NCBI RefSeq assembly: GCF_002920915.1 | Contig: NZ_PQVF01000002.1 | Location: 124,375-188,374, forward strand | Length of the DNA stretch: 64,000 bases | From: Solitalea longa | GTDB taxonomy: Bacteria > Bacteroidota > Bacteroidia > Sphingobacteriales > Sphingobacteriaceae | Direction of reading: 5' to 3' | Shown: piece by piece, positions 2,523 to 61,324 of the stretch | Numbering within the stretch: position 1 is the first letter of the stretch | Layout of the letters: every line of letters begins with the position of its first letter | The notes under the pieces: model-generated | What the model was told of the DNA's origin: nothing | Database searches by the model: none | Seen by the model: only the letters and a program-made list of their open reading frames with translations | Translations under genes and position numbers: made by a program

Positions 2523-3146
2523 TTATAGTTTAGGATACCCTGGAGAGTTCTTCACCTCTTCAATTTGCTTTGTATGACGTGCACTATGGGCGGTTAACAA
2601 AACGAGAAATTGATACGCATCCAGCATTCCTAAAGGACTTTGCCCAATATGTCCGTGCAAATCGTCCTTAGTCTTTTTAATATAATCGATAGTTTTCTGA
2701 CGTTCACCTTCAAATGCTTTAACTGCATCAGCCGGTGTGGCGAAAACATCTTTGGGAACTAACATTTCAGGAGCTTTTGCTTTATGACTGCGATCTTCGA
2801 TCATAGCAGAAATATCTTCCGTTTTAATGGTAACCTTTTTAGCCGGATCAACCGGTTTACTCATTATTGAATCGAGCGCATAACCTCTAATCATTGCTTC
2901 GGCTTTGATGATATGCTCAGCGCATTCGGCTATCGACCAACGGCTCGAATCTGCTTTATAATGCCATTGGGCATCAGACAAGCCTTTAATAGAATTCAGA
3001 AAGTTAGTTTTGGTTTTCTGAAGATAGTTAAGTACATATTCACGCTCATCTTTGCTGATCTGCTGAGCAAAGAGAACCCTTGGCAATAATGATACAAACA
3101 GTACCAGAGCCAAAAAAACGGGTTGTTTTGGGGTCTTAAATTTCAT
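2523..3146 (-). CDS. Secreted DinB-like superfamily protein
   Basis: Protein of 207 residues. Residues 1-28 form a Sec signal peptide ending in FAQ. The rest matches the DinB/YfiT-like four-helix metal-binding fold: LSDAQW near residue 60, RWSIAECAEHI near residue 75, and a C-terminal HSARHTKQI. The His residues in EHI and HSARH are the usual metal ligands. Family members act as metal-dependent thiol transferases or have unknown roles; the export signal is notable because most DinB proteins are cytoplasmic. The next gene upstream is a paralogue with the same layout, separated by its own terminator. Confidence 0.85.
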   Translation of the reverse strand: MKFKTPKQPVFLALVLFVSLLPRVLFAQQISKDEREYVLNYLQKTKTNFLNSIKGLSDAQWHYKADSSRWSIAECAEHIIKAEAMIRGYALDSIMSKPVDPAKKVTIKTEDISAMIEDRSHKAKAPEMLVPKDVFATPADAVKAFEGERQKTIDYIKKTKDDLHGHIGQSPLGMLDAYQFLVLLTAHSARHTKQIEEVKNSPGYPKL

Positions 3147-3270
3147 AGCGAGAGCGATTTAGGAAATCAAGTTAATGAAATTTAGTTAGAAATAATCTAC
3201 CACCGATCTAACAATCCTGTTAGAGAACAATCAAAAAACTCGTGCATGAACCTTGCTATAAACCCATAAA

Positions 3271-3302
3271 AAAGTGGCTGCCTTTGTTTTGACAGCCACT
3301 TT
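3271..3302 (-). terminator. Rho-independent terminator
   Basis: 10-bp stem AAAGTGGCTG / CAGCCACTTT with a 12-base loop and minus-strand T-rich tail. It lies 30 bases after the DinB-like gene at 3333-3959. Confidence 0.85.
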
Positions 3303-3332
3303 GTTTATTCACGGAGTCTTTTATTTAACTCA

Positions 3333-3959
3333 TTATAGTTTAGGATATCCTTTAGAGGATTTTATCTCCATAATTTGCGCGGTATGACGTGAACTATGGG
3401 CTGCTAATAAAACAACCCACTGATAAGCATCCAGGTACCCAAAGACAGGATGTTGCATCAAATGAGTATTCACCTCATTGTTGGCTAACTTCATAAAATC
3501 TATAGTTTTCTGGCGATCTGTTTCAAACTCAGCCATTAGATCTTCCTCGTTTTTCCATCGGTGAGTAGGTTTAAGCATCTCAGGTGCCTTTGCCTTAACC
3601 GACCGGTTCTGAACCATTTTAACCAGATCCTCGGTTTTATATTTCATTTCAGCTCGCATCGCTGAATTTGCCGGATCAGCCATGAGCTTATTCACTAAAC
3701 TCAGCAGTGTTTTTTCGGAAATTGCAATATGTTCGGAACACTCAGCAATTGACCAATGCAGTGAATCTGTCTTATAGTTCCATTGCTCCGGCGTTAGATC
3801 TTCAATTTGAAAAAGAAATTTCTCTTTGGTTGTTTGAAGTAGTTGAAGAGCGTAGTCCTTTTCCTGTTTGCTCAATTCTTGTGCTAAGGAAAAAACAGGC
3901 ATTGCAAAGGCAATACACATCAATGCCAGGGTTTTTCGGATGGCTAGTTTTGCTTTCAT
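3333..3959 (-). CDS. Secreted DinB-like superfamily protein (paralogue)
   Basis: Protein of 208 residues from the Met at 3959. An in-frame Met lies 24 bases upstream, but it would put eight polar residues before the signal peptide, so I prefer the inner start. The signal peptide ends near SLAQ. DinB-like motifs are LTPEQWNYK, HWSIAECSEHI and HSSRHTAQIMEI, with the metal-ligand His residues kept. It shares the KAPEML segment and the GYPKL C-terminus with the gene at 2523-3146, so the pair is a tandem duplication. Each copy has its own terminator, so they are probably transcribed separately. Substrate unknown. Confidence 0.85.
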   Translation of the reverse strand: MKAKLAIRKTLALMCIAFAMPVFSLAQELSKQEKDYALQLLQTTKEKFLFQIEDLTPEQWNYKTDSLHWSIAECSEHIAISEKTLLSLVNKLMADPANSAMRAEMKYKTEDLVKMVQNRSVKAKAPEMLKPTHRWKNEEDLMAEFETDRQKTIDFMKLANNEVNTHLMQHPVFGYLDAYQWVVLLAAHSSRHTAQIMEIKSSKGYPKL

Positions 3960-4060
3960 TTCCACATAAGTTGTTTGTGTCAATTAAAGAAAAATCTTTG
4001 GTTCAAACAAAGAAAAGGATCGATTTGGCGGTCAATCTTTTTCTCTAAGAACTGCAAAGC

Positions 4061-4092
4061 AAAACCCCGATTTATGGATTCACCGGGGTTTT
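4061..4092 (-). terminator. Rho-independent terminator
   Basis: Stem AAAACCCCG / CGGGGTTTT with T-run on both strands. It lies downstream of the minus-strand lipoprotein at 4130-4597 and could also block plus-strand reading. Confidence 0.85.
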
Positions 4093-4129
4093 CTTTTTGA
4101 TATCTTATTATTGACAAACATGTAAATCA

Positions 4130-4597
4130 TCACTTACATTCACTTGGCTTAAGTTCCACTTTGCTATTAAAATTCAACGATTTGTGATCTTTAAACATCA
4201 GCCTGCCATCTTTCTCAACTGTTTCTCCGTAACCTTCCACAAAGTCATCTCCTTTTTTAAGAAACGCCACTTCCCGCACTGACTCAATTCCTTCCGATTG
4301 AAAAATATAATCCAACAATAATGTATCACCTTTTAACATACCTTGCACATTGCCCTTATTACTATCTTTTTCGTAGAAATTATAATTCAACGTTCCAAGA
4401 ATCAGGCTGTCATCCGACATTTTAAACCGTAATAAAACACTGTCTTTATCCTTAATAAATGAATAACAATATTCATTTGATTTGGGTGAATCAGAAGTGC
4501 TTACTGAATCCGTTTGAACCGTTGTTTTATTTGTTTTAGAGTTACAGGCTATTATAAAAACAAACGCCATTACCGAGAGAGCTGTGTTTCTTTTCAT
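4130..4597 (-). CDS. Small hypothetical lipoprotein
   Basis: Protein of 155 residues with a lipoprotein signal peptide (MKRN start, lipobox IIAC, Cys18) followed by a polar Ser/Thr/Lys linker. The remaining ~110 residues alternate charged and hydrophobic positions as in a small beta-barrel or lipocalin-like fold: repeated DSVLLRF, DSLILGTLNY, GDTLLLDY. I do not recognise a named family with certainty. It stands alone, with a terminator after it. Function unknown. Confidence 0.75.
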   Translation of the reverse strand: MKRNTALSVMAFVFIIACNSKTNKTTVQTDSVSTSDSPKSNEYCYSFIKDKDSVLLRFKMSDDSLILGTLNYNFYEKDSNKGNVQGMLKGDTLLLDYIFQSEGIESVREVAFLKKGDDFVEGYGETVEKDGRLMFKDHKSLNFNSKVELKPSECK

Positions 4598-48454: not shown

Positions 48455-48514
48455 TTTATTTTATACTTAATGTAGTTTTATAAATTGATTAAAAATTAGA
48501 CTAAACTAATTCAG

Positions 48515-54658: not shown

Positions 54659-56422
54659 ATGGAAAAAATGAAGTTAATCACGAAAAAAGAGTTCGCGAAG
54701 GCAACAAAACTGGATAAGCTGAAAATGCCTGGCCTGGCCGAACTAGTGATGGAATTGACCAAGATTAACAAAGTAAATAGAGTTTTTGCCGAAAATATTG
54801 ATAAACAAGGGCTTGATTTTATCGATGGAGTGCTTGAAGATATTGGCGTTACTATTGAATTTGACGAAGATGACCTAAAAAACATCCCGAAAGAAGGTGG
54901 CTTTATCGCTTTGGCGAATCATCCTTACGGAGGTGTTGAGGGTTTAATTTTGGTAAAACTGCTTTGCATGGTTCGCCCAGAGGCTAAAGTAATGGCTAAT
55001 TTCTTATTAAAGAAAATACCTAATATTTCAGATTACTTTATTGGCGTGAACCCTTTCGAAAACGTTAAAAGCGTTTCGAGTATGGCCGGAATGAAACTAA
55101 CCATGGAACAATTGAAAGAAAATGTTCCTGTGGGTATTTTTCCAGCCGGAGAGGTATCAACCTATGATGCAGAAGCACAAACCATCACTGATAAAAAGTG
55201 GTCACCTATAGTAGGAAAGTTAATTACCAAGGCGCAATTACCGGTTGTCCCTATTTATTTTCACGGAAATAATGGTGTTTTGTTCCATTTGCTTGGCTTA
55301 ATTCATCCTTCCCTTCGAACGGTAAAACTTCCATCGGAACTGTTCAATAAAAAAGGAAACACGATAAAATTAAGAATCGGCAAACCGATAATGCCTGTTG
55401 AATACAATAAGTTTCCTAACCCCGAACGAACCTTAAATTATCTACGAGCCAGAACATACGCTTTAAATTCGAGCTTTGAGGCTGACGTAAACCGCTTCTT
55501 CGTAAAAGATATTTTCACTGTTTTAAAAAAGCCTGAGGACGTAGTTGAGGCTACTTCTCAAGAGTTGTTGGAACAGGATGTTGCTCAAATCAAAGAAGAG
55601 GCATTGGTTTATACCGAAAAAAACTATGAGGTTTATATAGCCAAAACACAACGCATTCCAAATATTATCAGAGAGATCGGGCGTCTGCGTGAAATCACTT
55701 TCCGACAGGTTGGCGAAGGTACCAATAAGAAAATCGATTTGGATGAATTCGATTTATATTACCGCCACTTGTTTATTTGGGATAAGGATGCCAATAAAAT
55801 TGTTGGCGCTTACCGTATTGGACGAGGAAATGATATATTTTATGCCTATGGTAAAAAAGGCTTTTATATCAATACCCTGTTCAATATTAAAGACCAGATG
55901 AACAATGTGCTTAAACATTCGCTTGAATTAGGCCGTTCGTTCATTGTTAAAGAATACCAACAAAAACCACTTCCATTGTTCTTACTTTGGAAAGGTATCA
56001 GCGCTTATGTATTAAAGCACCCCGAGTTCCAGTATCTGATTGGTCCGGTGAGTATCAGTAACAGTTTTTCTAATCTGTCGCAATCATTGATCATTGATTT
56101 TATTACTCAAAACTTTTATGATCATGAACTAGCGAAGCATGTTACCCCTAAAACCAAATTTAAAGTAACACATACCAATGTTGACACGGATGTTTTAATT
56201 GAGCAATTCAATTCGTTAAAATCATTGGATGCATTGATCTCTGAAATTGAAATCAGCAATAGCAAAATCCCAGTACTTTTAAGGCAGTACATTCAACTGA
56301 ATGCTAAAATTATCTGCTTCAATATTGATCCGAAGTTTGAAAATTCGCTGGATGGTTTCCTTGTTTTAAATCTGAAGGATATTCCGGAAGATAAAATGGA
56401 AAAACTTTCACAAGGTGTCTAA
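54659..56422 (+). CDS. Two-domain acyltransferase, OlsF-like amino-acid lipid synthase candidate
   Basis: Protein of 587 residues. The N-terminal half (about 75-270) is a PlsC-like acyltransferase: LANHPYGGVEG, VNPFEN, GIFPAGEVST. The C-terminal half (about 315-560) is a GNAT/OlsB-like N-acyltransferase: IREIGRLREITFRQVGEGTNKK and GAYRIGRG. Fusions of O- and N-acyltransferase domains in this order make ornithine or glycine lipids in OlsF-type enzymes, which are known from Flavobacterium and Serratia. Amino acid preference cannot be read. Cytoplasmic, membrane-associated. Ends in a 48-bp palindromic terminator. Confidence 0.85.
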   Translation: MEKMKLITKKEFAKATKLDKLKMPGLAELVMELTKINKVNRVFAENIDKQGLDFIDGVLEDIGVTIEFDEDDLKNIPKEGGFIALANHPYGGVEGLILVKLLCMVRPEAKVMANFLLKKIPNISDYFIGVNPFENVKSVSSMAGMKLTMEQLKENVPVGIFPAGEVSTYDAEAQTITDKKWSPIVGKLITKAQLPVVPIYFHGNNGVLFHLLGLIHPSLRTVKLPSELFNKKGNTIKLRIGKPIMPVEYNKFPNPERTLNYLRARTYALNSSFEADVNRFFVKDIFTVLKKPEDVVEATSQELLEQDVAQIKEEALVYTEKNYEVYIAKTQRIPNIIREIGRLREITFRQVGEGTNKKIDLDEFDLYYRHLFIWDKDANKIVGAYRIGRGNDIFYAYGKKGFYINTLFNIKDQMNNVLKHSLELGRSFIVKEYQQKPLPLFLLWKGISAYVLKHPEFQYLIGPVSISNSFSNLSQSLIIDFITQNFYDHELAKHVTPKTKFKVTHTNVDTDVLIEQFNSLKSLDALISEIEISNSKIPVLLRQYIQLNAKIICFNIDPKFENSLDGFLVLNLKDIPEDKMEKLSQGV

Positions 56423-56586: not shown

Positions 56587-57951
56587 TTAATAAGTTGTAG
56601 CCTGAGGATTAAAGTTACCCCAGCCTGAAGTCCAATTGGTGGTATCAAAAGCACCTTTATAAGTGACCTGGGTAAAGTAACTATCCAATCCTGTAAAGCT
56701 AGCACCCGTTTTTGCTACAGAAGCTGATTTCAATAGGAAGTTGGGAGCAGTTTGATTAAATGCATCTTCAATTCCTGCATCAGCAGCTGTATTTAAAGCA
56801 CTATTGCCTAAAAGGGTGAATGCTGCATTTAAGGCTGCATCATCAACATAAGTAGCAGCAGTTGTACCTTTTACACCAAAAGGCTTAGCAATACCGTACA
56901 CCAAATTGTCTTTAAATTCAGATGAACCATCTTTTAATGAGGCAGCAGTATTATCGCTTTCAATTAAAACGCCTGCAGTTGCAAAACCGGTAATAATTGA
57001 GTTTCGAACAACTAACTTCGAGCTTCTTCTCCAATGGTTACCAGCTGCATGGTGAGTGTTAGCAGTAGAGTTAACGCCAATCAAAGTCATATTTGAGATC
57101 ACAGGACGAGTGATTGGAGTGTTAGTAGTACCATTTGCATCGTTATCCGATTCGATACCGTTTGATGCTCCGGTACCAGCGTTGTCGGCAAATGCAGGGT
57201 CTTGTTGAGCAATTATAAACTGTAATTTACCGCTAAAACCATTATCAAAGTCGAAGTTATCGTCGGTAGCGTGAACAGATACTAAGTATTTAGCATTTAC
57301 AGTCCCGCCGAAGAACTCGAAACTATCATCACCAGAGAATGAAACCTGAATGTGATCTAACGTAGTTCCTGATCCAACACCACCACAAGTTAATCCGTTG
57401 ATCTCATTGTTTGGTTGGAAAGCGATTCCTGGGTATTCAATACGAACATATTTTAATGAACCTGAATTATCGGCCGGATCATTACCTCCGTATTTACCAT
57501 CACCTGCAGTGTTGTCAACACCACCTTCAATAACACTTTCGCCTCCGGTAACATTGATAGGAGCTTTACCTAACAAAATGATACCACCCCAATCACCAGG
57601 AGCACGTTGACCAGCCGGTTGACCTGAAGTAAATACAACTGGATCTGCTTCAGTTCCATTTGCCACTAATTTACCACCGCGGGTTACAATAATGGTCGCT
57701 TTAGAATCTTTATCACCTTTAATAACTGAACCAGCTTCAAAAGTTACCGTTGCACCATTTTTAATATATACAAAACCTTTTAAAACGTAAGAACCACGTT
57801 TATAAGTTACGCTCTGAGTAATTTCTCCGGTTATTTCTTTGTTAACAATAGGAGGATCAGGAGTAGGATCGTCATTGCTACTGCTACATGAAGCAAATGC
57901 TAATGCTCCAAAACCTAAAGTTAAAATGGCTAATAAATGTTTCTTTTTCAT
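56587..57951 (-). CDS. Surface lipoprotein partner of a TonB receptor (beta-helix-like)
   Basis: Protein of 454 residues from the Met at 57951 (MKKKHLLAIL...SCSSS); an in-frame Met 24 bases upstream would precede the signal peptide with eight polar residues. Lipobox ASC, then an Asp/Pro linker. The body is rich in Gly, Asn, Asp and Val with GGTVNAKYL, DDNFDFDNGFSGKLQF and VRNSIITGF, like a right-handed beta-helix. It lies downstream of the TonB receptor at 58144-60957, with its own promoter carrying phased TTAACA units. Likely outer-membrane facing, perhaps capturing the receptor's ligand. Function unknown. Confidence 0.85.
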   Translation of the reverse strand: MKKKHLLAILTLGFGALAFASCSSSNDDPTPDPPIVNKEITGEITQSVTYKRGSYVLKGFVYIKNGATVTFEAGSVIKGDKDSKATIIVTRGGKLVANGTEADPVVFTSGQPAGQRAPGDWGGIILLGKAPINVTGGESVIEGGVDNTAGDGKYGGNDPADNSGSLKYVRIEYPGIAFQPNNEINGLTCGGVGSGTTLDHIQVSFSGDDSFEFFGGTVNAKYLVSVHATDDNFDFDNGFSGKLQFIIAQQDPAFADNAGTGASNGIESDNDANGTTNTPITRPVISNMTLIGVNSTANTHHAAGNHWRRSSKLVVRNSIITGFATAGVLIESDNTAASLKDGSSEFKDNLVYGIAKPFGVKGTTAATYVDDAALNAAFTLLGNSALNTAADAGIEDAFNQTAPNFLLKSASVAKTGASFTGLDSYFTQVTYKGAFDTTNWTSGWGNFNPQATTY

Positions 57952-57972: not shown

Positions 57973-58050
57973 CAAACATATCGTCGCATCGTTACCTGAA
58001 TGTTAAGCATTGATTATATGTGAAGCATCATTCTGTTACCATTTTGTTAA
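57973..58050 (-). promoter_or_regulatory. Promoter with 11-bp direct repeats (Pho-box-like)
   Basis: Minus-strand units: TTAACA (58050-58045), GTAACA (58039-58034), a degenerate slot at 58028, ATAATC (58017-58012), TTAACA (58006-58001) and GTAACG (57995-57990). All are on one 11-bp grid. After a 9-bp gap comes TATGTTTG (57980-57973), an exact TAnnTTTG box, 21 bases before the ATG. No TTTG -33 box, so an activator is needed. Confidence 0.65.
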
Positions 58051-58143: not shown

Positions 58144-60957
58144 CTATTTAAATGTATAGGCAAAGGCCAGCGAAAAACTTCTGCCAAAAACCGACGAACC
58201 GATTACATTATCTGAATTATCAAAAGATTTATTCTTATTTATATCCTGATACAATGTAGTTTTTTGGTTCAGTAAGTCTGATGCGGTAAGTTTTAATTCA
58301 GCATTATTCTTAAACAGTTTCTTACTAACCTGAAAATCGATTACATCACGAGAATTTTCATATACATCTTCATACTCACCCGGAACACCCACTTCATTTA
58401 TACGTCTGCCAATTCTATTGTACATCAAACTCATATTTAAAGAGCTTTCTAAAGCACTAAACTGCAAACCTGCATTAACCAAATAAGGTGATTGTCCTTG
58501 CAACGGCCTATCTCCAATAGCTTTTCCTGTAGCATCAAGTACATCCACTTTCGAATTAATAAGAGCCGCATTGGCGAAAACAATAAGGTTACGCGCCCAG
58601 TCAGCTTTTGATATGAACGTTAAATCTTTTCGAACCTCTGCTTCAATACCATAGTTAACCGCCTTGTCAACATTTTCGTAACTACGGGTACGATTTACAC
58701 CACTTAAACCGGGCACCACAATTTGCTCAACCGGATTGTTAAAGCCTTTATAAAAACCTGAAATTGATAATACCTGTCCAGCCGATGGGTACCATTCGTA
58801 TTTCAAATCAACGTTATTAATATTGGTTGAAATAAGATTTGGATTTCCGTAAACAGTGGTGGCAATTGAAAAGTCATAGAATGAGAACGGAGAAGTTTCT
58901 CTAAACTCGGGACGAGAAACGGTTCTCGAATAAGCCACGCGAGCATTCGATTTATCATTTACCTTAAAGGTTAAATTAGCCGATGGCAACAGATCGAATT
59001 TAGAGAAGTCGAAATCCTCTTCCCTTAAATTATCAGGCGTACGGGTTTTTAAATTTTGTGAGTAAGCTTCCGTTCTTAATCCCCAAACCAGGCGTATTTT
59101 TTTTGAAAGATTATTATCGAACATAAAATAAGCCGCATTTAAGTAAGCGACGGCATTATACTTATACGTTCCGTTGTTCAGCTCACCCAACTGAAACCCC
59201 CCCGGACGAATATTCTCATCATTAAAAATCTGGTCTTGAGGAAGCGCTAACAGATCATTCTCAAATTGAAGACTGGTATAATAAGCCAATACGCGAGAAG
59301 AAAAATCCCGTTGCTTATAATAGCCCATATAGCCAAACTTCAATAAGCTTTTCTCTTTTAAAAATGTAAATGGTACAGAAATGAAGCCATTGCCACCATA
59401 AACATTATCTTTTAGGTCTGAATAAAACTTACCACCATAATTTGGAGAAGGAGAACCACCAATACCAGCGGTATAAGGAACAGAAGGGTCATCCACTTTC
59501 TCCAGATCTTTGGAGTAAAGTATTCGACGAAGATCCGGCTCACTACGATTAGCATTCGTGTAGTTTAGGTTCCAATCTAATTTTATACGTTTTTCACCAA
59601 CCAAATGCTCTCCTTCAATTTGTGAGGAAAGGAAGGTCTTCGGCGTGGTATAATCCGAATTAGCAAGCACTGCATTATCCTTACCATCCTTGTTCCATCC
59701 AGAACGATCCGTATGTGAATTATCTAACGTTCTGTTATAAAAGTTTTTGAATGAGATTTTATTGCCTTTGTAGTTGTATGCAAAATTTAAAATACCACCT
59801 AAAGCCGATGAATACTTAAACTGCTGGTCGTCATAAGAAAATACCTGCCCCGTGTTATCATAGTCATCCCTGTGTGTTTCAGTGATATTTTCCTGGTAAC
59901 GGTACGATAATGAAAAGATAGAACCTAAAATGGTATTGTTTTTAAACTTTTTATTGTTACCCAAGGTAAATTGAAGCGCCGAAGTTGGCATTCCTTTTCC
60001 TTGATCCAAAACAGCCCAGTCATTTTGCAAGTCGCGACCAAATTGGTAACGCTGTTCATTGGTGTAATCGGCATAAGTAATTTTTGACGGAATACTTGAA
60101 GGCAAACTTCGTGTACCATCTTCAATAGTTAACCAATCTAACTTTCCTTTTTGTGAGCCTTTAAAAGGCTTGAACGTTGATTGCGAATTAAAGCCTGTGC
60201 CGATATTAAGCGTAATAAAGTTTTCGTCAGGAATGTCTTTGGTTGTAATTTGAACAATACCTCCTGCAAAATCCCCCGGCATATCCGGAGAAGCCGTTTT
60301 ATTGATCATAACGCTTTCAACAAGGTTTGATGGAATAGCATCGAATGAAAACGCTTTGCGATCAGGTTCGGTACTTAACATTAGTGAATTATTAAGGGTA
60401 GTTACATTGTAACGATCATTTAATCCACGTACAATAACGAACTTATTATCCTGAACGCTGGTTCCACTCACCCTTTTTAAAACATCGCTGGTGGTTTTAT
60501 CAGGAGTTTTCTTAATGATCTCTGCAGAAATACCATCTGAAATACTGATGTTGTTTTTTTGCAACGAATAAAGGGCATTAACTGTTTCTTTTTTATATGT
60601 AGAAGAAACAACCACTTCGCCTAACTCTGTGGCAGCATCATCCAACACCACATTCAACTCTGTAACTTTATCGGCCTTTACTTCAACCTCTGAAATGGTT
60701 TTTGTTTTATAACTGATGTATTTGAATTCGAGGGTGTAGGTACCCGGAGCCAAATTAAACTCATAACGGCCATCAACCGAAGTGGGTGCTACTTTTTGTG
60801 AACCTTTAATTATTACCGGTAATCCGGCAATAGGTTCGTTAAATGTTTTATCTGAGACCTTACCAATAATTTTACCGTTTTGCGCCCATGCCGTAACCGC
60901 AGTGAGCAACACTAAAGTCATTGAAAGAAAAATCGTTGAAATGGAGAATTTTTTCAC
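58144..60957 (-). CDS. TonB-dependent receptor paired with a lipoprotein
   Basis: Protein of 937 residues. Signal peptide 1-25 (AWAQ), carboxypeptidase-regulatory-like domain (about 28-115), plug (about 118-240: VVVSSTYKKETVNALYSLQKN, IVRGLNDRYN, DFAGGIVQITTKDIP), and a 22-strand barrel ending SLAFAYTFK. Outer-membrane importer of an unknown ligand. Its promoter carries six phased TTAACA-type units, the longest such array in the window; the downstream lipoprotein has the same. I infer a phosphate-regulated uptake pair. Confidence 0.92.
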   Translation of the reverse strand: MKKFSISTIFLSMTLVLLTAVTAWAQNGKIIGKVSDKTFNEPIAGLPVIIKGSQKVAPTSVDGRYEFNLAPGTYTLEFKYISYKTKTISEVEVKADKVTELNVVLDDAATELGEVVVSSTYKKETVNALYSLQKNNISISDGISAEIIKKTPDKTTSDVLKRVSGTSVQDNKFVIVRGLNDRYNVTTLNNSLMLSTEPDRKAFSFDAIPSNLVESVMINKTASPDMPGDFAGGIVQITTKDIPDENFITLNIGTGFNSQSTFKPFKGSQKGKLDWLTIEDGTRSLPSSIPSKITYADYTNEQRYQFGRDLQNDWAVLDQGKGMPTSALQFTLGNNKKFKNNTILGSIFSLSYRYQENITETHRDDYDNTGQVFSYDDQQFKYSSALGGILNFAYNYKGNKISFKNFYNRTLDNSHTDRSGWNKDGKDNAVLANSDYTTPKTFLSSQIEGEHLVGEKRIKLDWNLNYTNANRSEPDLRRILYSKDLEKVDDPSVPYTAGIGGSPSPNYGGKFYSDLKDNVYGGNGFISVPFTFLKEKSLLKFGYMGYYKQRDFSSRVLAYYTSLQFENDLLALPQDQIFNDENIRPGGFQLGELNNGTYKYNAVAYLNAAYFMFDNNLSKKIRLVWGLRTEAYSQNLKTRTPDNLREEDFDFSKFDLLPSANLTFKVNDKSNARVAYSRTVSRPEFRETSPFSFYDFSIATTVYGNPNLISTNINNVDLKYEWYPSAGQVLSISGFYKGFNNPVEQIVVPGLSGVNRTRSYENVDKAVNYGIEAEVRKDLTFISKADWARNLIVFANAALINSKVDVLDATGKAIGDRPLQGQSPYLVNAGLQFSALESSLNMSLMYNRIGRRINEVGVPGEYEDVYENSRDVIDFQVSKKLFKNNAELKLTASDLLNQKTTLYQDINKNKSFDNSDNVIGSSVFGRSFSLAFAYTFK

Positions 60958-60980: not shown

Positions 60981-61058
60981 CAAAAGTATGTGGGGAACAT
61001 TAAGCTGATGTTAACTATCAATTAACCTTGTTTTACTTATTGGTTACATCTGTGTTAA
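60981..61058 (-). promoter_or_regulatory. Promoter with six phased 11-bp repeats (Pho-box-like)
   Basis: Minus-strand units, each 11 bp apart: TTAACA (61058), GTAACC (61047), GTAAAA (61036), TTAATT (61025), TTAACA (61014), TTAATG (61003), positions being the first base of each. All keep TAA at places 2-4. A 9-bp gap leads to TACTTTTG (60988-60981), an exact -7 box. The start codon is 23 bases further. The last units cover the -33 region. Confidence 0.7.
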
Positions 61059-61324
61059 GCAGAAATTTAAAACCGAATCAAATTATTGATTTTCAGCATT
61101 TTAACTAACATTGAAAAATTAGATAATTATTAAATCAAGTTTTATTTATTGTATTTAACAGTACATTTTAAGTTAACGTTCTAATAAATATCGTTCAGTG
61201 ATGAACAAAGCCGCAAAGGATCAGGAACTTATTAAACAAAAAGGATAATCAGGCTTTAATAATTTATTAAACCTGATTATCCTTCTGTATTTCTTGTGCT
61301 TTTTCTGCTTTACGAAACGTATAA
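61059..61324. other. Intergenic stretch holding the Mpo1-like gene terminator
   Basis: No ORF is supported. A 13-bp stem AAGGATAATCAGG / CCTGATTATCCTT at 61241-61284, with an 18-base loop and minus-strand T-run, terminates the gene at 61325-61819. The rest is A+T-rich sequence upstream of the repeat array. Confidence 0.75.

Follow-up and report, generated by a model that had tools for sequence, protein, structure and literature searches.

The window, i.e. the whole 64,000-nucleotide stretch of DNA analyzed here, carries on its minus strand a gene coding for a TonB-dependent receptor (TBDT) and, behind a 192-bp gap, a lipoprotein gene (Table 1). The receptor reached 217 bits against TIGR01782, a score under the cut-off of 310. 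Its promoter region had been described in a first-pass annotation as six TTAACA-type units on an 11-bp grid, each with TAA at positions 2 to 4, followed after 9 bp by the box TACTTTTG. On re-reading, the units, the gap and the box all proved exact. The box is of the TAnnTTTG type, quoted as the Bacteroidota -7 consensus in the accessible text of PMC7366714. The lipoprotein gene carries its own copy of the array in the gap behind the receptor gene, a feature absent from the first-pass annotation. No match to the lipoprotein was found in Pfam, NCBIfam or PDB, and relatives are encoded in 91 of the 101 genomes of the family (own genome included, E<=1e-10). A further gene (54659-56422, plus strand), encoding a protein with Acyltransf_2 and Acetyltransf_5 domains (acyltransferase/GNAT), converges on the receptor-lipoprotein pair; we take its product to be OlsF-like and possibly an ornithine-lipid synthase. 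No array was seen in the upstream bases read for this gene, nor any match to the promoter model R1 described below; in a different genome, the gene of a protein with these two domains (L224) has an R1 match upstream.

Table 1. Features of the two promoters in the window, and candidate small RNAs found behind arrays in relatives (R1, promoter model described in the text).
Feature	Position	Strand	Basis or remark
Array 1, six Pho-box-like units on an 11-bp grid: TTAACA (start 61058), GTAACC (61047), GTAAAA (61036), TTAATT (61025), TTAACA (61014), TTAATG (61003)	60998..61058	-	sequence; R1 42.1 bits, E 3.3e-10
9-bp gap, last unit of array 1 to -7 box	60989..60997	-	length same in relatives
TACTTTTG, -7 box, Bacteroidota TAnnTTTG type	60981..60988	-	consensus quoted in PMC7366714
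TonB-dependent receptor, 937 aa, GTG start at 60957	58144..60957	-	CarboxypepD_reg + Plug + barrel
Terminator-like hairpin and T run, between Mpo1-like gene and array 1	61242..61283	-	read from sequence
Array 2, same 11-bp grid: TTAACA, GTAACA, ATGCTT, ATAATC, TTAACA, GTAACG	57990..58050	-	5/6 units with TAA; R1 31.8 bits, E 6e-7
9-bp gap of array 2	57981..57989	-	sequence
TATGTTTG, -7 box (TAnnTTTG type) of lipoprotein gene	57973..57980	-	sequence
Lipoprotein gene, 454 aa, ATG at 57951	56587..57951	-	gene call
Small RNA candidates	L045:12673-12756, L073:12862-12945, L115:12778-12860, L111:16045-16128		R1 array upstream
Small RNA candidates	L051:15454-15536, L048:14369-14452, L089:11875-11957, L104:4685-4770		R1 array upstream
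Further small RNA copies	L195-L208

Array 1 is the sole six-unit TAA array of the window when periods of 8 to 14 bp are considered on both strands. A four-unit TAA grid at 48491 is located in the leader of an EF-Tu-like gene and is devoid of TTAACA units. As TAA is frequent in the 367-bp intergenic region of the receptor (26 occurrences), a chance periodicity in AT-rich DNA could be invoked. However, a six-unit TAA array appeared in none of 20,000 first-order Markov resamples of this region, and in none of 300 resamples of the whole window. Moreover, a footprint is visible within the genus: across three congeners, the TAA positions of array 1 are invariant at 17 of 18 sites, in comparison with 10 of 18 for the other unit positions, 14 of 30 for the spacers and 7 of 59 for the positions just upstream. 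Taken with the register kept across the phylum (see below), these comparative data already contradict a chance origin, whose probability we regard as negligible.

An alignment of 16 lipoprotein relatives gave 571 confirmed loci, and the best 80 of them (the named loci) have sources as diverse as Pedobacter, Hymenobacter, Parabacteroides and Ignavibacteria. In 68 of these 80, the region upstream of the TBDT gene was usable (a long ORF of TBDT kind just upstream of the lipoprotein gene). Upstream of these 68 TBDT genes, TAAC pairs are found 54, 34, 29, 18 and 10 times at distances of 11, 22, 33, 44 and 55 bp, respectively, against 0.6-0.9 times each after dinucleotide shuffling. Relative to the 41 TAnnTTTG boxes of these regions, TAAC units are located at -15 (18 units), -26 (14), -37 (11), -48 (15), -59 (11) and -70 (10), while off register, back to -91, more than two units occur just at -79 (5) and -68 (4). 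Since the units occupy fixed positions from TAnnTTTG, the 9-bp gap is constant across the sampled phylum. At least three units in register were counted in 29 of the 68 TBDT upstream regions and in 8 of 29 lipoprotein upstream regions; these strict counts are lowered by the use of the longest ORF as uncurated TBDT start, as several such starts fall inside the gene (e.g. L045 and L053). In 21 of the 68 named loci, fewer than 60 bp separate the receptor gene from the lipoprotein gene, a distance that hardly leaves space for a separate promoter array. An alignment of 42 promoters, which drew on sequence further upstream than the strict count, has TAAC units at the -33 position; these promoters were picked for such units and are hence uninformative on a TTTG-type -33 element.

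From this alignment, a sequence-only model, R1, was built on 31 of the 42 named-locus promoters, the 11 lower-scoring ones being dropped. No sequence of the own genome was in the training set, which may include a metagenome-assembled genome (MAG) of the same genus. In the scans, R1 was applied to the best 150 first-look candidates per genome (own genome, 17-genome and seven-genome sets) or to the best 38 (119 genomes of the class), a procedure that misses weak sites. In the own genome, the receptor promoter ranked first, the lipoprotein promoter second and the upstream region of pstS third (18 bits, E 0.013), the remaining nine matches being at chance level (E 0.4-2.9). The pstS match spans the array part of the model, and this promoter comprises four units, the 9-bp gap and a degenerate box, CTCTTTTG; the operon continues with two permease genes (assigned by eye), an ABC ATPase gene and phoU. 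When the genome was searched for KTAAC-N6-KTAAY-N10-TAnnTTTG, the receptor and lipoprotein promoters were the sole sites without mismatch; allowing one mismatch gave two more, and the reversed control pattern gave 1 + 1. The simpler pattern TTAACAN5TTAACA has five matches in the own genome, one of them at pstS and the other four away from recognized phosphate genes. A GDPD-type phosphodiesterase gene on C11 fits the one-mismatch pattern and is suggestive only, given the reversed control and an R1 score of 8.8 bits. A porin-like gene on C7 has the grid and the 9-bp gap (weak grid L141:2867-2926, gene 3035-4306, G000:C7); it ranked eighth with R1 (E 1.26), belongs to no Pfam family and is not claimed as a target. 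Homologs of this porin-like protein are encoded near the receptor-lipoprotein pair in seven loci (L042, L046, L049, L050, L058, L065 and L100).

In a set of 17 genomes, own genome included, R1 gave 33 matches at E<=0.005, 31 of them outside the own genome. Twelve of these 31 precede TonB-type receptors or related barrels (several recognized by eye), three ElpS-like lipoproteins and four DUF47 (PhoU_div) genes, two of the latter assigned by Pfam and the other two 73-78% identical to one of these. The rest consist of two pstS (one from its position), two MetallophosN/C phosphoesterases, one Porin_O_P, one phoB whose product is 79% identical to the own PhoB candidate, and six other genes or sites with no gene. 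The order phoR-[array]-DUF47-PiT was found in two genomes, the kinases sharing 48-52% identity with the own phoR candidate and PiT being assigned by eye. Among the 119 genomes of the class (own genome included), 22 have a match at E<=1e-4 and 97 have none; the 29 matches comprise lipoproteins and receptors, along with pstS, phoB, a Metallophos_2 phosphoesterase, Porin_O_P and PhoX. Five of seven genomes reached via the named loci have a match at E<=0.02, and 15 of the 23 matches were inspected; they include pstS in an Ignavibacteriaceae and CCP_MauG in Chryseobacterium. The latter is of interest since Fjoh_2477 (MauG_like, pf03150), in the PhoX context of F. johnsoniae, is induced by low phosphate according to the available text of PMC8115612. 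At this threshold, Parabacteroides and Bacteroidales bacterium CF, also in this set, gave no R1 match. Some scanned relatives may be genomes that also supplied training loci, a possible overlap that concerns the receptor and lipoprotein matches and none of the other gene types. Further genes also have R1 matches upstream; by eye, they include KUP-like, aquaporin-like and sigma-factor-like ones. In genome G126, SWIB-like and topoisomerase-like genes (L210 and L230) are preceded by near-perfect tandem repeats of 11 bp (GTAATACARTG-like), which fit R1 and look like a different repeat.

As a model-free control, upstream regions with at least three TAA[C/T] units at period 11 were counted. All four pstS upstream regions of the own genus and 9 of 14 from other genera (one of the 14 lying inside the gene) have such units. 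For comparison, the other genes of the named loci provide 727 upstream regions, 10 of which have them; at other periods from 7 to 15, the same count was reached in 0-2 regions. The ten positive control genes include four Metallophos_2 phosphoesterases (two by Pfam, two at least 80% identical to one of them) and one phoB, the other five being two receptor-like genes, a fragment of porin type, a peptidase gene adjacent to a porin gene and one unassigned gene. The array-bearing Metallophos_2 phosphoesterases share their Pfam family with F. johnsoniae PlcP (PMC8115612, as available) and are for this reason called PlcP-like here; they may also be LpxH-like. The grid is thus not a motif scattered at random near unrelated genes, the outcome that the first-pass annotation had named as speaking against its reading. 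The question it raised, whether the grid stands 9 bp before TAnnTTTG at phosphate genes as well, is answered mostly in the affirmative, by the own pstS, with its degenerate box, and by pstS of other genera; among the own phosphatase genes, none gave a convincing match. Extended to relatives, the search also places the array before phoB, DUF47-PiT, PhoX, phosphoesterases and Porin_O_P.

The arrays also precede candidate non-coding genes. In eight loci (seven from named Pedobacter, one from a Sphingobacteriales MAG), an R1 array and the 9-bp gap are followed by a non-coding segment of about 80 nt. At its end is a terminator hairpin that shows compensatory changes and whose GATGGATGTC loop is the same in all eight; GTTAGTATT...AGTTGAT is conserved as well. 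A model of this RNA alone, R2, found 14 copies in 8 of the 101 family genomes, all of one genus and possibly overlapping with the genomes of the eight loci; ten of the 14 copies have at least two of three units in register before a NNNNTTTG box. Rfam gave no match in the four loci scanned, two of them among the eight, and a search of the own genome for the Pedobacter RNA was negative. We regard the segment as a candidate Pho-controlled small RNA. Downstream of three other receptor-lipoprotein loci, arrays stand before a non-coding segment of another kind, with a strong hairpin and a T run at its end (L074:20001-20200, L094:15061-15250 and L069:12567-12750), which may be a second small RNA controlled in the same way.

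Eight genes of the Trans_reg_C (OmpR) family are present in the own genome. Among the seven that were scanned, the product of L133 (G000:C35) has the highest PhoB scores (228.8 bits with TIGR02154, cut-off 296.2; 218.5 bits with NF053854, cut-off 270), both below cut-off, and its gene is directly followed by that of a HisKA/HATPase kinase. In 15 of the 80 named loci, the flanks contain a gene for a regulator of the L133 type (at least 220 bits), and pst genes and porins are found near the receptor-lipoprotein pair in several loci. Arrays precede L133-type phoB genes (60-79% identity) in L099, L188 and L223, while no array was found upstream of L133 itself (R1 6.5 bits); autoregulation is therefore not general. 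Direct repeats of 11 bp are common to many OmpR-family sites, and the spacing could therefore be a family trait, the arrays being bound by another of the eight proteins, for instance the RprY-like one, in response to a signal other than phosphate. The sub-threshold scores of L133 agree with such an assignment, as does the situation in Riemerella anatipestifer, where the PhoP motif was likened to ArcA (PMC9603813) and the regulator may not follow phosphate. Indeed, in the accessible text of PMC5399024, a mutant without "PhoPR" had 8-fold higher pstS mRNA and the authors liken this system to M. tuberculosis PhoPR, which is unresponsive to phosphate; a later paper from the same group cites induction of Riemerella PhoPR in phosphate starvation (PMC9603813, as available), so that the two papers disagree on the phosphate link. 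Against another OmpR-family regulator stand the array targets, which include the canonical pstS, phoB, PhoX and DUF47-PiT, and the genomic linkage: at the same score, six other regulator queries retrieved the RprY-like type in 2 of the 80 loci and the other five in none. We therefore consider it improbable. A near-palindrome, TTAACATCACGTTAACA, occurs in L001 (G000:C1:162731-162747) and L137 upstream of a sensor-kinase-like gene near an RprY-like regulator and is perhaps a site for another OmpR-family protein.

Collectively, the arrays have at least two direct-repeat units at 11-bp period and a fixed place before a -10-type element, and the same element is found at pst and, in relatives, at PhoX and phoB, as in Pho boxes. 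The first-pass annotation had read array 1 as a PhoB/PhoP-type activator site, a reading which gains support from the pstS, phoB and PhoX targets, the fixed geometry and the phoB/phoR linkage. Judged from these genomic data, both arrays of the window are very probably Pho-box operators of a Bacteroidota type, at which a PhoB-type regulator would activate the receptor and lipoprotein genes on phosphate starvation. The phosphorylated regulator, for which L133 is the candidate, would bind the 11-bp direct repeats head-to-tail, each subunit contacting one TTAACA-like unit on the same helix face and neighboring units serving as dimer sites (e.g. TTAACA-N5-GTAACA in array 2). The unit ending 9 bp before TAnnTTTG would take the place of the -33 element and bring in RNA polymerase with the primary sigma factor; this last unit at the -33 position points to class II activation. 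An array of six units could accommodate three dimers and allow cooperative control. Both genes, each from its own promoter, would be switched on, and the TonB receptor and surface lipoprotein would form an outer-membrane capture system; by analogy with known pairs, the transported substrate may be a phosphorus compound. Against this reading count the scores of L133 below cut-off and its array-free promoter, the degenerate box of the own pstS, the strict counts at TBDT and lipoprotein genes (29 of 68 and 8 of 29), the 97 class genomes without an R1 match, the R1 matches at other genes, the Riemerella mutant and the constitutive expression reported for the Caulobacter receptor CC0171 (PMC2996285). 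Alternatively, the arrays might be Pho boxes acting mainly as repressor sites, or inert ones, with the receptor driven by another factor, since several confirmed Pho boxes lie at genes without evident phosphate control (review PMC4415409, as available). The fixed 9 bp to the -7 box, with a unit replacing the -33 element, is by contrast an activator geometry, and E. coli Pho boxes lie about 10 bp before -10 (PMC1906773, as available); a repressor or inert role thus appears very improbable.

Beyond the window, activation by PhoB may well extend into one rigid Pho promoter code shared by the Bacteroidota, Ignavibacteria included, a generalization that we favor with moderate confidence: a grid of TTAACA-like units with 11-bp period that stops exactly 9 bp short of TAnnTTTG. 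Through this code, a single PhoB would drive TonB receptor/lipoprotein capture systems, pst, PiT, phosphatase and lipid-remodeling genes, and the Pedobacter small RNA of about 80 nt. The Bacteroidota have a major part in the recycling of organic phosphorus, and knowledge of the outer-membrane systems that they use at low phosphate comes mainly from Flavobacterium expression data (PMC8115612, as available). With a readable cis code, the Pho regulons of many species of the phylum would become predictable from their sequences, and orphan TonB receptors and lipoproteins would acquire functions linked to phosphate. The arrays would also offer a clean case of OmpR-family activation of a -7-box promoter. 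A literature search covering neither preprints nor most subscription journals found no published description of the array and its fixed -7 spacing. Putative Pho boxes have been reported in plcP clusters of marine bacteria, possibly flavobacteria, and the accessible part of that paper gives no consensus (PMC4796936).

Several systems described in the available text of the literature resemble the one analyzed here. In Flavobacterium johnsoniae, pairs of a TBDT and an abundant surface lipoprotein, the Pus systems with FI-FIII lipoproteins, are induced on phosphate depletion, one of them within the phoBR operon, together with MauG_like, PhoX_like and PlcP proteins (PMC8115612); the likeness is by context, and the cis element is not described, the words "promoter" and "motif" each having 0 occurrences in the main text. 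Likewise by context, Caulobacter ElpS (CC0170) is a phosphate-starvation surface lipoprotein co-occurring with a TonB receptor and said to be conserved in Bacteroides, with the difference that its linked receptor, CC0171, is reported as constitutive (PMC2996285). Closer in phylogeny, the DAP-seq motif of Riemerella PhoP has the core TTTAACA, and a TonB receptor promoter is among its EMSA targets; it differs by its 583 peaks and its ArcA likeness, and the accessible text gives no array geometry or -7-box spacing (PMC9603813). The boxes of E. coli PhoB, B. subtilis PhoP and cyanobacterial SphR are likewise 11-bp direct repeats before phosphate genes, bound head-to-tail (PMC4415409) and, in E. 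coli, just before the -10-type element; the TTAACA unit is very close to the SphR box, CTTAACCT, made of 8 bp and a 3-bp linker (PMC1906773). Unlike these boxes, the arrays reported here reach up to six units, keep a constant 9 bp to TAnnTTTG and have TonB receptor/lipoprotein pairs among their main targets.
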